From: Bacteroidales bacterium
GTDB lineage: Bacteria; Bacteroidota; Bacteroidia; Bacteroidales; UBA12170
Length of the DNA: 33,118 nucleotides
Direction of reading: 5' to 3'
NCBI GenBank assembly: GCA_016933745.1
Contig: JAFGAK010000089.1
Location: 1 to 33,118, forward strand
Each line of letters begins with the position of its first letter. Within the stretch, counting starts at the first letter, position 1. A program made the position numbers and the translations under genes. Positions 7,044 to 11,720 of the stretch are shown here, piece after piece. Under the pieces are notes generated by a model. It saw only the letters and a list, made by a program, of their open reading frames with translations. It ran no database searches and was not told where the DNA came from.

Positions 7044-7074
7044 TTTGGTAAATCTAAAGATTGTTCTACATTTG
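7044..7074 (+). promoter_or_regulatory. Bacteroidetes-type promoter (-33 TTTG / 19 nt / -7 TACATTTG) for the aromatic operon leader
   Basis: TTTG at 7044-7047, 19-nt spacer, TACATTTG at 7067-7074, matching the known TTTG-N~19-TAnnTTTG consensus. Confidence 0.8.
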
Positions 7075-7081
7075 CAAGCGA

Positions 7082-7135
7082 ATGATGACAATTTATACAT
7101 ACAGCTATTTTTATTTTTGGTATTCGAAACCATAG
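7082..7135 (+). CDS. Aromatic leader peptide 1, MMTIYTYSYFYFWYSKP (attenuator)
   Basis: Direct translation; 5 Tyr, 2 Phe and 1 Trp in 17 codons; just downstream of the promoter; upstream of a terminator hairpin and the aromatic biosynthesis operon. Confidence 0.82.
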   Translation: MMTIYTYSYFYFWYSKP

Positions 7136-7136
7136 A

Positions 7137-7178
7137 GGGATTGCTTGTATATAACGATAAAGTACATAAAAGAGTCCC
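7137..7178 (+). promoter_or_regulatory. Candidate antiterminator hairpin 1
   Basis: GGGAUUGCUU (7137-7146, immediately after the leader 1 stop) can pair with AAGAGUCCC (7170-7178), the 5' arm of terminator 1, with one bulged G and one G-U pair. Confidence 0.65.
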
Positions 7179-7203
7179 GAAGTAATTTGGGACTCTTTTT
7201 TTT
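7168..7203 (+). terminator. Attenuator terminator 1
   Basis: AAAAGAGTCCCGAA-GTAA-TTTGGGACTCTTTT followed by T-run; 14-bp stem (one G-U) with a GNRA-type loop. Confidence 0.9.
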
Positions 7204-7214
7204 GAAATAATAGG

Positions 7215-7268
7215 ATGGCAAATAAATATTGGTTTTTTTATTGGACTTATTATTATCTGTTTTACTAG
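7215..7268 (+). CDS. Aromatic leader peptide 2, MANKYWFFYWTYYYLFY (attenuator)
   Basis: Direct translation; 6 Tyr, 3 Phe and 2 Trp in 17 codons; between terminators 1 and 2. Confidence 0.82.
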   Translation: MANKYWFFYWTYYYLFY

Positions 7269-7310
7269 CAGAATGGATGCATATTGGTTAAACCCTTGCT
7301 GAAGTTCTGT
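7268..7310 (+). promoter_or_regulatory. Candidate antiterminator hairpin 2
   Basis: GCAGAAU (7268-7274, overlapping or adjacent to the leader 2 stop) can pair with GUUCUGU (7304-7310), the 5' arm of terminator 2. Confidence 0.5.
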
Positions 7311-7330
7311 GTACGCAGAGCTTTTTTTTT
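7302..7330 (+). terminator. Attenuator terminator 2
   Basis: AAGTTCTG-tgtacg-CAGAGCTT (one G-U) followed by a run of T; directly upstream of the aminotransferase gene. Confidence 0.78.
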
Positions 7331-7338
7331 GAATTTAG

Positions 7339-8517
7339 ATGAATGATAAAGTGATGAAAATAGTTAAAATACAACCCGCAAATAGAGTTAAAGTAGTGGA
7401 TGAATATTATTTCTCCGTTAAGCTTGCCGAAATACGAAAATTAAATGCCGCCGGTGTTTCTATCATCAATTTGGGAATAGGAAATCCGGATTTAGCTCCT
7501 TCCGAAAACACCATAAACGGATTAAAAGAGGCGGTTGAAAATCCTTCTAATCATGGATATCAGAGTTATACAGGAATTCCTGAATTACGAGAAGCATTTG
7601 CGTCTTTTTATAAAGATCGCTATAAGGTGAGCCTAAATTCGGATAGCGAAATTTTGCCTCTCTTAGGTTCCAAAGAAGGAATCATGCATATTTCCCTCGC
7701 TTTTTTGAATGTTGGCGACGAAGTTTTAGTCCCAAATCCAGCTTATCCGGCATACAAAGCGGTTGCATCGCTCTGCGAAGCAAAATCGGTTAGCTACGAT
7801 TTAAGCGAAGAAAACGATTGGTTTCCTGATTTTGAGGCTCTAGAAAAAAGCGATCTATCCAAAGTAAAAATGATGTGGGTTAATTACCCAAATATGCCAA
7901 CAGGAAAGCTAGCAACCAAGCAATTATTTGAGCAGTTAATTGCCTTTGGCAAAAAACATGGAATCTTAATTGTAAATGATAATCCGTATAGTTTAATCAG
8001 TGCGGGAGAGCCAATTAGTATTTTATCTATTGATGGAGCAAAAGAAGTAGCTATTGAGCTCAACTCCTTGAGTAAATCACATAATATGGCCGGTTGGCGT
8101 GTTGGAATGATTGGAGGAAGTGCTGAATTTATTCATGCTATTTTAAGAGTAAAATCAAACATGGATTCTGGCATGTTTAAACCCATTCAATTAGCTGCAG
8201 CTGAGGCATTGAAAAACCCAAACGATTGGTATACAAGTCAGTTAAAAATTTATGCCGACCGCAAAGCGATTGGACAACAGATCCTTTCAGAGTTGGATTG
8301 TACCTTCGATGAAGATTCTTCCGGTATGTTTATTTGGGCTAAAATCCCAGAATCAGCTGAATCGTCTCAAGTTTTCAGCGAAAATATCTTGAAAAACAAA
8401 CATGTTTTTATCACTCCCGGATTTATTTTTGGATCACAAGGCGAACGCTTTATCCGTCTTTCACTAGCAAACAGCAACCAACTACTAAACGAAGCTTTAA
8501 ACCGTATAAAAAACTAA
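7339..8517 (+). CDS. Pyridoxal-phosphate-dependent class I/II aminotransferase (aromatic operon)
   Basis: INLGIGNPDLAPS, YQSYTGIPELREAFASFY, NYPNMPTGKLA, SLSKSHNMAGWRVGM; 392 aa. Confidence 0.93.
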   Translation: MNDKVMKIVKIQPANRVKVVDEYYFSVKLAEIRKLNAAGVSIINLGIGNPDLAPSENTINGLKEAVENPSNHGYQSYTGIPELREAFASFYKDRYKVSLNSDSEILPLLGSKEGIMHISLAFLNVGDEVLVPNPAYPAYKAVASLCEAKSVSYDLSEENDWFPDFEALEKSDLSKVKMMWVNYPNMPTGKLATKQLFEQLIAFGKKHGILIVNDNPYSLISAGEPISILSIDGAKEVAIELNSLSKSHNMAGWRVGMIGGSAEFIHAILRVKSNMDSGMFKPIQLAAAEALKNPNDWYTSQLKIYADRKAIGQQILSELDCTFDEDSSGMFIWAKIPESAESSQVFSENILKNKHVFITPGFIFGSQGERFIRLSLANSNQLLNEALNRIKN

Positions 8518-8520
8518 AAA

Positions 8521-9369
8521 ATGAAAGTATTTATTATTGGATTGGGAATGATTGGAGGTTCTTTGGCCAAAACCTTGCGCAACAGCAATTTTGCTGATGA
8601 AATTCTGGGTTTTGATAAAGCTACAGAGAATACAGCCTTTTGTCTCGAAAACAACTTAATTGATAGATCAGTCTCTATTGTGGAAGGAGCAAAAGAGGCT
8701 GATATCATACTATTAGCTACTCCCGTTGACAGCATTATGGAATTGATACCTCAATTATTGGATCAATTGGAAGAACAAGTTGTAATAGATATGGGATCGA
8801 CCAAGAAAGAGATTTCGAAGCTTGCAGCAACACATCCAAAAGGTTGCAATTTCGTAGCAGCTCATCCGATGGCAGGCATCGAAAATTCAGGGCCAACAGC
8901 CGCTTTGGAGCAGTTGTTTACAGATAAAGTAGCCATCATCTGTAATCCTGAAAATAACGCACGAATGCCATTAAATCTGGCTAAACTCTTCTTTAAATCG
9001 TTAAAAATGAAGCTGATATTTATGGATGCTGAAGAGCACGATCGAGATTTAGCCTATTTATCACATTTATCACATATTTTATCTTTTTCCTTGGCTTTAA
9101 CAGCTTATAATGTGGAAGATAAAGAAAGGAATATTTTCAATCTAGCAGGCGGTGGATTTGCCTCTACCGTTCGATTGGCTGGAAGCTCAGCTGCGATGTG
9201 GAACCCTGTTTTTCTTCAAAATAAAACCAATATGCTTGAAGCTCTCGAACTCTATATTTCAAACCTGAATTTGTTTAGAGAACATATCAAAAACGAAAAT
9301 AAAGAAGGATTAAATCAATTAATGAATAAATCGAACGCAATCTATAAAATCATAAATCAATCGATATGA
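8521..9369 (+). CDS. tyrA: Prephenate dehydrogenase
   Basis: MKVFIIGLGMIGGSLAKTLR Rossmann motif; AAHPMAGIENSGP; LSHILSFSLAL; operon context. Confidence 0.92.
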   Translation: MKVFIIGLGMIGGSLAKTLRNSNFADEILGFDKATENTAFCLENNLIDRSVSIVEGAKEADIILLATPVDSIMELIPQLLDQLEEQVVIDMGSTKKEISKLAATHPKGCNFVAAHPMAGIENSGPTAALEQLFTDKVAIICNPENNARMPLNLAKLFFKSLKMKLIFMDAEEHDRDLAYLSHLSHILSFSLALTAYNVEDKERNIFNLAGGGFASTVRLAGSSAAMWNPVFLQNKTNMLEALELYISNLNLFREHIKNENKEGLNQLMNKSNAIYKIINQSI

Positions 9370-10460
9370 AAACAAAACTAGACTTACTACCTGTTAACGA
9401 ATGGGGAATTAAATACCATGGCAGACCACTTTTAATGTCGGGGCCTTGCAGTGCAGAAACGGAAGAGCAAGTATTACAAACTGCACAAGCACTGGCTGAT
9501 AGCGGAGTATCTGTATTTAGAGCCGGAATTTGGAAACCACGCACTAGACCAAATAGTTTCGAAGGAGTGGGAGCCGAGGGATTAAAATGGTTGAGCAAAG
9601 TGAAGAAAGAAACCGGTTTAAAAGTAGCTACTGAAGTTGCAAATGCAAAACATACTTACGAGGCGCTCAAACACAATGTGGATGTGCTCTGGATTGGCGC
9701 AAGAACAACCGTGAATCCTTTTGCTGTTCAAGAAATTGCCGATGCATTGGAAGGAGTTGATATTCCTGTATTTATCAAAAATCCGATTAATCCGGATATT
9801 GAGTTATGGATTGGCGCATTGGAACGTATCAATAAAGCTGGAATCACCAAGCTTGGCGCGATTCATAGAGGATTTAGCAGTTATGGCGATGCTGCTTTTC
9901 GGAATGCACCAAATTGGCAAATTCCCATCGAACTTAAAAGACGTTTTCCTGAGCTAATCTTAGTCAATGATCCAAGTCATATTGGTGGTAAAAGAGAACT
10001 TTTAAGAGAAATTTCGCAAAAAGCAATGGATTTGGATTTTGATGGATTGATGATTGAAGTACATCCAAATCCGGATGAAGCTTGGAGCGATGCTAAGCAA
10101 CAAATTACTCCCGATGTATTCAAAGAATTAGTTGCTTCTTTAAAAATCAGAACCAAAGGAAGTGGACAGGAAGAGCAATCGCGTTTATGCGAATTGCGTA
10201 AAAAAATTGACCATTTCGACGATGAATTAATGGATATTATCGAAGCTAGAATGAAAGTAGCCGAAGAAATTGGGGAGTTCAAACGCGAAAATAATATTGT
10301 TGTTTTGCAAAATAGTCGTTGGAATGAAATCCTAGAGCAAAGCATTGCTGTTGGACAATCCAAAGGTCTCAGTTCAGATTTGATAACACGGATTTTCAAA
10401 GCCATTCACCAAGAAAGTATCAACAAACAAACTGAAATTATTAATCGCGTTTTAGTCTAA
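9366..10460 (+). CDS. Bifunctional 3-deoxy-7-phosphoheptulonate synthase / chorismate mutase
   Basis: N-terminal LLMSGPCSAETEEQV...FRAGIWKPRTRPNSFEGVG...IHRGFSS...DPSHIGGKRELL; C-terminal chorismate mutase LCELRKKIDHFDDELMDIIEARMKVAEEIGEFKRENN. Overlaps the tyrA stop by ATGA. Confidence 0.94.
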   Translation: MKTKLDLLPVNEWGIKYHGRPLLMSGPCSAETEEQVLQTAQALADSGVSVFRAGIWKPRTRPNSFEGVGAEGLKWLSKVKKETGLKVATEVANAKHTYEALKHNVDVLWIGARTTVNPFAVQEIADALEGVDIPVFIKNPINPDIELWIGALERINKAGITKLGAIHRGFSSYGDAAFRNAPNWQIPIELKRRFPELILVNDPSHIGGKRELLREISQKAMDLDFDGLMIEVHPNPDEAWSDAKQQITPDVFKELVASLKIRTKGSGQEEQSRLCELRKKIDHFDDELMDIIEARMKVAEEIGEFKRENNIVVLQNSRWNEILEQSIAVGQSKGLSSDLITRIFKAIHQESINKQTEIINRVLV

Positions 10461-10463
10461 ATC

Positions 10464-11720
10464 ATGATTGCAAAAGTTTATCCGGCAACAATCAATGGCT
10501 CCCTGCAAGCACCAGCTTCAAAAAGCATGCTTCAGCGAGCCATTGCGGCTGCATTTCTGAGTAAATCTAAAATTCAAATTTCAGGCTATACGCCAAGTGC
10601 AGATGCAGATGCTGCTTTGGCATTGATCGAAAAACTAGGGTCAAAAGTAAATAGAAATCAAGATCTCATCGAGATTAATTCGGGTGATTTTATTGACCCG
10701 CAACAGCAATTAACGATTGGCGAATCGGGCTTGGGAATTCGACTTTTTTCTCCAATTTTAGCGACTTTCAAAATCAAATTTCGAATTGAAGCCGAAGGAA
10801 CGCTAAGAAAAAGACCGCTTCGTTTGATCGAAGATGTTTTGAGTAAAAACGGCGTTTCGTGTTCTACGAATCAAGGATTTGCGCCAATTGAGATTATTGG
10901 CCCGCTCAAAGGTGGAACTATTTCGTTGGATGCAAGTGAAGGTTCTCAGTTTTTAAGTGGATTATTGATGGCATTGCCTATTAGCCATGTTGATAGCACC
11001 ATTCAGGTTCGTAACTTAAAAAGTAAGCCTTATATCGATATGACCATGCAGTTATTAACCGATTTTGGTGTAAACGTGCAGCATACAGAATACAAAACAT
11101 TTTCGATCAAAGGAAATCAAAACTATCGTGCTAAAAAGTACAAAGTGGAAGGCGATTGGAGTGGAGCAGCCTTTTTGTTAGTTGCAGGAGCAATTGCCGG
11201 AAAATTAACGCTTAAAAATATTCACCAAAATTCTTTGCAAGGCGATAAAAATTGTGTGAAAGTTTTGGAACAATCCGGTGCAATTGTTCTGCAAAAAGAA
11301 AAGGAAATTCGTGTGCAGAAACGAGTGTTGCATGCGTTTGAATACGACGCCACTGAAACGCCGGATTTATTTCCACCTTTAGCTGCATTGGCTGCATCTT
11401 GCGAAGGTGTGAGTATAATCTCAGGTGTAAACCGACTGGAACATAAAGAAAGTAATCGGGCAGAAGCAATTCGGAGTGTTTTAGAAAAGCTTGGTATCAA
11501 AGTGAAAATTGTGGACGATGAAATGCATATTCATGGCGGTAAAGTAAAAGGTGCTGTTGTTTCATCTTTTCACGATCATCGAATAGCAATGATGGCAGCA
11601 GTGATGGCGTTAAATTCAGAAAGCGAAATAGAAATTACGGACGCAGAAAGTATAAATAAATCCTATCCTGGATTTTACGAAGATCTTCAGAAATTAGGTG
11701 TTCCGATTCAGTTTTCTTAA
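10464..11720 (+). CDS. aroA: 3-phosphoshikimate 1-carboxyvinyltransferase (EPSP synthase)
   Basis: GSLQAPASKSMLQRAIAAA, GESGLGIRLFSPI, EGSQFLSGLLMALP, HDHRIAMMAAVMAL. Confidence 0.94.
   Translation: MIAKVYPATINGSLQAPASKSMLQRAIAAAFLSKSKIQISGYTPSADADAALALIEKLGSKVNRNQDLIEINSGDFIDPQQQLTIGESGLGIRLFSPILATFKIKFRIEAEGTLRKRPLRLIEDVLSKNGVSCSTNQGFAPIEIIGPLKGGTISLDASEGSQFLSGLLMALPISHVDSTIQVRNLKSKPYIDMTMQLLTDFGVNVQHTEYKTFSIKGNQNYRAKKYKVEGDWSGAAFLLVAGAIAGKLTLKNIHQNSLQGDKNCVKVLEQSGAIVLQKEKEIRVQKRVLHAFEYDATETPDLFPPLAALAASCEGVSIISGVNRLEHKESNRAEAIRSVLEKLGIKVKIVDDEMHIHGGKVKGAVVSSFHDHRIAMMAAVMALNSESEIEITDAESINKSYPGFYEDLQKLGVPIQFS

Follow-up and report, generated by a model that had tools for sequence, protein, structure and literature searches.

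A predicted ribosome-mediated attenuator, the first of two units in series, upstream of an aromatic amino-acid operon in a Bacteroidales genome

Organization of the locus

The window, by which we mean the whole 33,118-nucleotide stretch of DNA analysed here, comes from a Bacteroidales MAG with a genome completeness of 76%. Its forward strand carries an operon that begins with a class I/II aminotransferase gene (7339–8517) and continues with genes for prephenate dehydrogenase (tyrA; 8521–9369), a DAHP synthase/chorismate mutase fusion (9366–10460) and EPSP synthase (aroA; 10464–11720). The end of aroA overlaps that of the convergent uvrA gene by 4 bp (11717–11720). The gene upstream lies on the opposite strand and points away from the operon, and the gap between them holds two short frames rich in aromatic codons, each followed by a hairpin and a U-run. 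The operon encodes enzymes of tyrosine synthesis and of the common pathway, which matches the codons that the leader would sense.

Leader peptide 1 and its promoter

Leader peptide 1 (MMTIYTYSYFYFWYSKP and stop; forward strand, 7082–7135) contains five Tyr, two Phe and one Trp codons and is kept in seven members of the genus. The Tyr codons begin at 7094, 7100, 7106, 7112 and 7121, the Phe codons at 7109 and 7115 and the Trp codon at 7118; after Tyr 7121 there follow only Ser, Lys and Pro codons and the stop codon TAG (7133–7135). All seven genus members share the Trp codon TGG (7118–7120), which may reflect the presence of common-pathway genes in the operon.

A promoter of the Bacteroidota primary-sigma type was recognized from its sequence on the forward strand. 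A −33 TTTG element (7044–7047) lies 19 nt before a −7 element of the form TAnnTTTG (TACATTTG; 7067–7074), and the arrangement TTTG-N19-TACATTTG (7044–7074) matches the Bacteroidota consensus (PMC7366714). Scans for sigma-70 promoters are ill-suited to this phylum. As the −7 element is only 7 nt upstream of the ATG, the leader 1 transcript is predicted to be near-leaderless. The corresponding distance is 8 nt in six close relatives and 16–35 nt in most of the other units described below; an exact TAnnTTTG occurs at most 70 nt away in 74 of the 105 units from the phylum (background, 3.6%). In B. thetaiotaomicron 5′ UTRs shorter than 10 nt make up only about 3.7%, and a near-leaderless start of leader 1 would be unusual if the mapped start agrees.

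Structure of attenuator 1

The initial annotation of this DNA proposed a terminator that pairing between 7137–7146 and 7170–7178 would destroy, and all of its coordinates for attenuator 1 are correct. Terminator 1 (7168–7181 with 7186–7199) comprises 14 bp, including one G·U pair, with a GUAA loop and a U-run at 7196–7203; the energy of the evaluated structure is −19.7 kcal/mol. Its 5′ arm is region 3 (7168–7181) and its 3′ arm, running into the U-run, is region 4 (7186–7203); across the genus 96.9% of cells are paired in this structure. A generic terminator scan missed terminator 1. In the antiterminator GGGAUUGCUU (7137–7146) pairs with AAGAGUCCC (7170–7178) through 9 bp, with G7143 bulged. 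Its energy is −8.1 as drawn and −9.6 when folded locally (z = −2.8, equalled by three of 200 shuffles), the duplex gives −10.5 (p = 0.02 against dinucleotide-shuffled spacers) and the whole attenuator 1 RNA folds better than 200 of 200 shuffles (z = −4.7).

A short TGGT/ACCA pairing (7118–7121/7129–7132) had been put forward as a possible pause hairpin. The pairing exists, but alone it is worth only −2.4, and it forms the apex of a larger hairpin that the annotation had overlooked. In this 1:2 hairpin (7094–7121/7129–7151; total energy −11.0) residues 7094–7099 pair with 7146–7151, 7103–7105 with 7143–7145 and 7107–7112 with 7136–7141. Region 1 (7094–7121) coincides with the control codons and would act as a protector or pause element by pairing with region 2 (7136–7151), which includes the 5′ arm of the antiterminator. 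With TGGT/ACCA as merely the tip of this hairpin, the design is that of a classical 1:2/2:3/3:4 attenuator. When compared with shuffles, the 1:2 hairpin gives p = 0.11 for the window alone and Stouffer z values of −4.7 for the genus and −17.6 for the phylum.

In folding of the growing RNA, the 1:2 hairpin is present by nt 7154, the antiterminator is the minimum-energy fold at 7178–7187 (−11.5 to −12.7 kcal/mol) and terminator 1 takes over from 7190, once its 3′ arm emerges. The antiterminator is therefore competitive, as the proposed switch demands. Completed terminator 1 (−19.7) has so large an advantage in stability over the antiterminator (−8 to −10) that the switch has to work kinetically. 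In RNA that carries no ribosome and has not yet gained the 3′ arm, the antiterminator prevails at equilibrium too (P = 0.91), so that termination on an untranslated RNA would depend on the 1:2 hairpin forming first.

Within the genus only 0–1 pairs per structure have changed on both sides, too few compensatory changes for covariation to establish either the antiterminator or the 1:2 hairpin. Two candidates were left out of this count. The change to AGGAUU/AGUCCU (for GGGAUU/AGUCCC) in L006 is alignment-dependent, MAFFT having misplaced this sequence in region 2, and that in L008 can be read as either G·U or A-U.

Ribosome footprint model

We modelled the ribosome as a footprint barred from pairing, extending from 18 nt behind to 8–14 nt ahead of the first base of the A-site codon, and took as the readout the probability that upstream sequence captures the terminator 5′ arm as soon as this arm has been made. 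The annotation held that a ribosome stalled at the aromatic codons leaves 7137–7146 largely free and that one at the stop codon covers this segment. The computed capture probability is about 0.99 at every aromatic codon (within codons 5–14) and drops to about 0.2 when the ribosome is at codon 17 or the stop (0.12–0.38 over all model settings), in agreement with both parts of the proposal. The switch point falls at codon 15, 16 or 17 as set by the assumed leading edge. All seven genus members switch just past their control codons with leading edges of +8 to +14; an aromatic 15th codon makes L003 and L006 borderline once the leading edge reaches +13, and L005 still shows a capture of 0.49 with the ribosome at the stop. 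Such switching suggests a spacer role for the two to three codons that separate the last control codon from the stop, namely to bring the ribosome over region 2.

Attenuator 2

Attenuator 2 (7215–7324, forward strand) is a second complete unit in series that has to be passed before the genes are reached. It consists of leader peptide 2 (MANKYWFFYWTYYYLFY and stop; 7215–7268), an antiterminator 5′ arm from about 7269 and a terminator stem at 7301–7324. The end of leader 2, YYYLFY, is kept in five of the seven genus genomes. In the footprint model unit 2 of the window shows no switch-off at the stop (P = 0.96), unlike those of L003 and L007. A distance of 12 nt separates the conserved Tyr-Tyr-Tyr run from the antiterminator in all seven genomes and the position of the stop moves; this spacing was read by eye once the rule described below was known, and it serves as an illustration and not as a test.

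Comparison with other Bacteroidota

Leader and terminator units precede the orthologous operon in Bacteroidales, Saprospiraceae, Cytophagales and at other loci. The scan looked for an aromatic-rich frame followed by a terminator, and 108 of its hits were chosen according to where they lay and how they were oriented; a terminator was obtained for 105 units at 86 loci, of which 81 units were left after the removal of near-duplicates. The loci were drawn by aminotransferase similarity, so that the sample may be uneven, and loci with no detected unit were left aside; we therefore claim no phylum-wide frequency.

The pairing of region 2 with its own terminator arm was compared with dinucleotide shuffles in the 81 non-redundant units. 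It is significant (p < 0.05) in 72% of them, with a median z of −3.1 and a Stouffer z of −26.7, a figure that treats the loci as independent, which is true only in part. Pairing with the unit's own arm (−12.1 kcal/mol) is better than that with the arms of other loci (−7.8 kcal/mol; Wilcoxon p = 3e-14), which indicates that both sides change together and constitutes evidence at the level of the phylum. Unit 1 of the window passes the pairing test (p = 0.02) and is not among the strongest units.

In the significant units the distance from the antiterminator to the stop spans −42 to +4 nt, and that from the last clustered aromatic codon to the antiterminator lies between 8.6 and 13.4 nt (10th–90th percentile). 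In 79% of the 81 units, versus 17% of shuffles, the first paired nucleotide of the antiterminator follows the last aromatic codon at a distance of 9–15 nt, a band that was picked after the distribution had been seen and that was used identically on the shuffles. A ribosome with a codon in its A site should reach about 10 nt beyond that codon. The annotation related the antiterminator to the stop codon, and in the window 7137–7146 does start 1 nt after the stop, but this is no general rule, as the stop floats; across these units, the conserved spacing runs from the last control codon instead.

Split pheA and codon content of the leaders

In the clade of the window pheA lies outside the operon (on G000:C240 in the genome of the window). 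The region upstream of the split gene was read in six genomes; a separate leader with terminator is present in five of them, and L123 showed none. In the genome of the window this pheA attenuator (L125; G000:C240, about 1146–1270) has the leader MNNDRLISRFFLFSMHFC, with Phe and no Tyr. Its terminator is AAGTCCCGGCAAATCGGGACTT, and the post-stop sequence CCGAGACTT is able to pair with the terminator 5′ arm.

The five split-pheA leaders contain 25 Phe and three Tyr codons, compared with 37 Phe, 72 Tyr and 15 Trp codons in the window-type leaders of seven genomes (Fisher p = 1e-7 for Phe:Tyr, a value made optimistic by close relatedness). In the sister clade, L009 and L010, pheA is still in the operon behind the leaders and the count is 17 Phe to 16 Tyr; the remaining Bacteroidota units mix the two (370 Phe and 282 Tyr in 68 units). 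On these codon counts, the direction of the Phe:Tyr shift is that which codon-specific sensing would predict. The split of pheA provides a natural test of such sensing, with each part standing behind a leader enriched in codons for the corresponding amino acid.

Relation to known systems

In a search of Rfam release 15 no family attained its threshold within the window, and 20 related loci gave only one tRNA. Sub-threshold matches in the window include clear chance hits. One of the sub-threshold matches, the model of the E. coli pheA leader (RF01859, Phe_leader), aligns end to end at 7089–7202 with 26.4 bits, far short of the gathering score of 55 bits; BjrC68, a chance family, outranked it by E-value in that search and the match was rejected. 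The E. coli pheA leader and the window have in common an aromatic-codon leader, alternative hairpins and a terminator before an aromatic gene, but the window leader is Tyr-led, lies beside its promoter, is one of two in series and belongs to another phylum. The E. coli trp attenuator also uses 1:2, 2:3 and 3:4 logic with its control codons in region 1, as in the window, although the sensed codons and the operon differ and the window leader has no Shine–Dalgarno lead.

Bacteroid-trp RNA (RF01692), which presumably acts through a leader peptide, had no match in the window or in the 20 related loci. It is a predicted cis-regulatory RNA of Bacteroidetes (PMC2864571), and its name points to trp genes. 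The Salmonella mgtCBR leader (PMC3641672) resembles the window in having two short frames in one leader region and transcription attenuation; the window differs in having two complete leader–antiterminator–terminator units in series with aromatic codons in both. The uORFC-13-1 motif before the DAHP synthase gene aroF of Acholeplasma is a predicted Phe-sensing leader frame with a terminator (PMC8632094); it is known only from Acholeplasma and environmental DNA and is likened to the window by description. A 2010 survey (PMC2965389) described leader peptide systems as demonstrated until then in Proteobacteria and Actinobacteria alone, and itself added Firmicutes. A literature search found no paper describing the element of the window, and an earlier prediction of Bacteroidota cases is possible. 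In our view the mechanism is a known one, ribosome-mediated attenuation, and the predicted element is absent from Rfam, sometimes tandem and here apparently near-leaderless.

Proposed mechanism and alternative explanations

The most consistent interpretation of these data, to which we assign a probability of about 0.9, is that attenuator 1 works by classical ribosome-mediated transcription attenuation, responding to charged tRNA-Tyr and, to a lesser extent, to tRNA-Phe and tRNA-Trp; the analysis supports the initial annotation in this interpretation. The sequence anatomy, conservation, thermodynamic competence, spacing rule and codon specialization were computed. A leader frame rich in product codons and an intrinsic terminator precede the first gene, the antiterminator is exclusive with the terminator and exceeds chance, the 1:2 hairpin extends over the control codons and, in computation only, a stall at these codons frees the antiterminator and arrival at the stop blocks it.

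We infer that transcription in vivo starts a few nucleotides before the leader ATG and that a ribosome loads immediately and translates the leader in step with the polymerase, such coupling being assumed for Bacteroidota. Where Tyr, Phe or Trp is scarce, the ribosome would stall within codons 5–14 and occupy region 1, its leading edge halting just short of region 2, which could then pair with the terminator 5′ arm and allow readthrough. With abundant amino acids the ribosome would translate the remaining non-aromatic codons, reach the stop and cover region 2, leading to termination. If the leader were untranslated, the 1:2 hairpin would form first and termination would also be favoured. Polymerases that pass attenuator 1 would meet a second, similar unit before the genes.

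A plain intrinsic terminator, marking an upstream transcript end or a short RNA, might lie beside a chance frame with no ribosome control at all. The AT-rich region makes Phe and Tyr codons cheap, and chance short frames near hairpins do occur occasionally, as a few off-target hits in the unit scan illustrate. However, the neighbouring gene on the upstream side lies on the opposite strand, 86 loci have a frame, terminator and antiterminator in this position, the spacing and pairing exceed those of shuffles and the leader codons track the downstream genes, all of which leaves this explanation very improbable. A terminator with a competing upstream fold would also fit direct sensing of the free amino acid or of tRNA by a riboswitch or by a TRAP- or T-box-like, protein-binding attenuator, to which the frame would be incidental. 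We give this no greater credence, as the frame is conserved, the antiterminator is positioned by its distance to the aromatic codons and, save for one tRNA, no Rfam family exceeds threshold in the window or the 20 related loci.

It is less improbable, though still unlikely, that ribosome-mediated attenuation is real but that the response is governed by attenuator 2, the unit closest to the genes, with attenuator 1 in reserve. One unit was detected in 67 of the 86 loci, and so a single unit can suffice; yet the genus keeps both, terminator 1 is stronger than terminator 2 (−19.2 versus −10.7) and unit 1 switches more cleanly in the footprint model of the window.

Beyond the ribosome-mediated reading of attenuator 1, we propose tentatively, and at somewhat less than even odds, that these elements form an uncatalogued Bacteroidota-wide class of aromatic attenuators with a ribosome ruler and near-leaderless loading, in which two serial units multiply control in this genus. 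The ruler, which is part of the same tentative proposal, would be the ribosome itself: while it pauses at the last control codon, its leading edge would mark where the antiterminator begins, wherever the stop lies. If the ribosome-mediated reading is correct, the aromatic operon of much of Bacteroidota is governed by the control logic of E. coli trp and pheA, and working transcription–translation coupling is implied there; near-leaderless and serial control would require that coupling to be tight, in a phylum without Shine–Dalgarno mRNAs. The spacing rule would offer a simple way to find more such attenuators. Outside the genus, tandem aromatic attenuators were seen at ten loci (L034, L036, L037, L063, L066, L070, L089, L093, L095 and L112).
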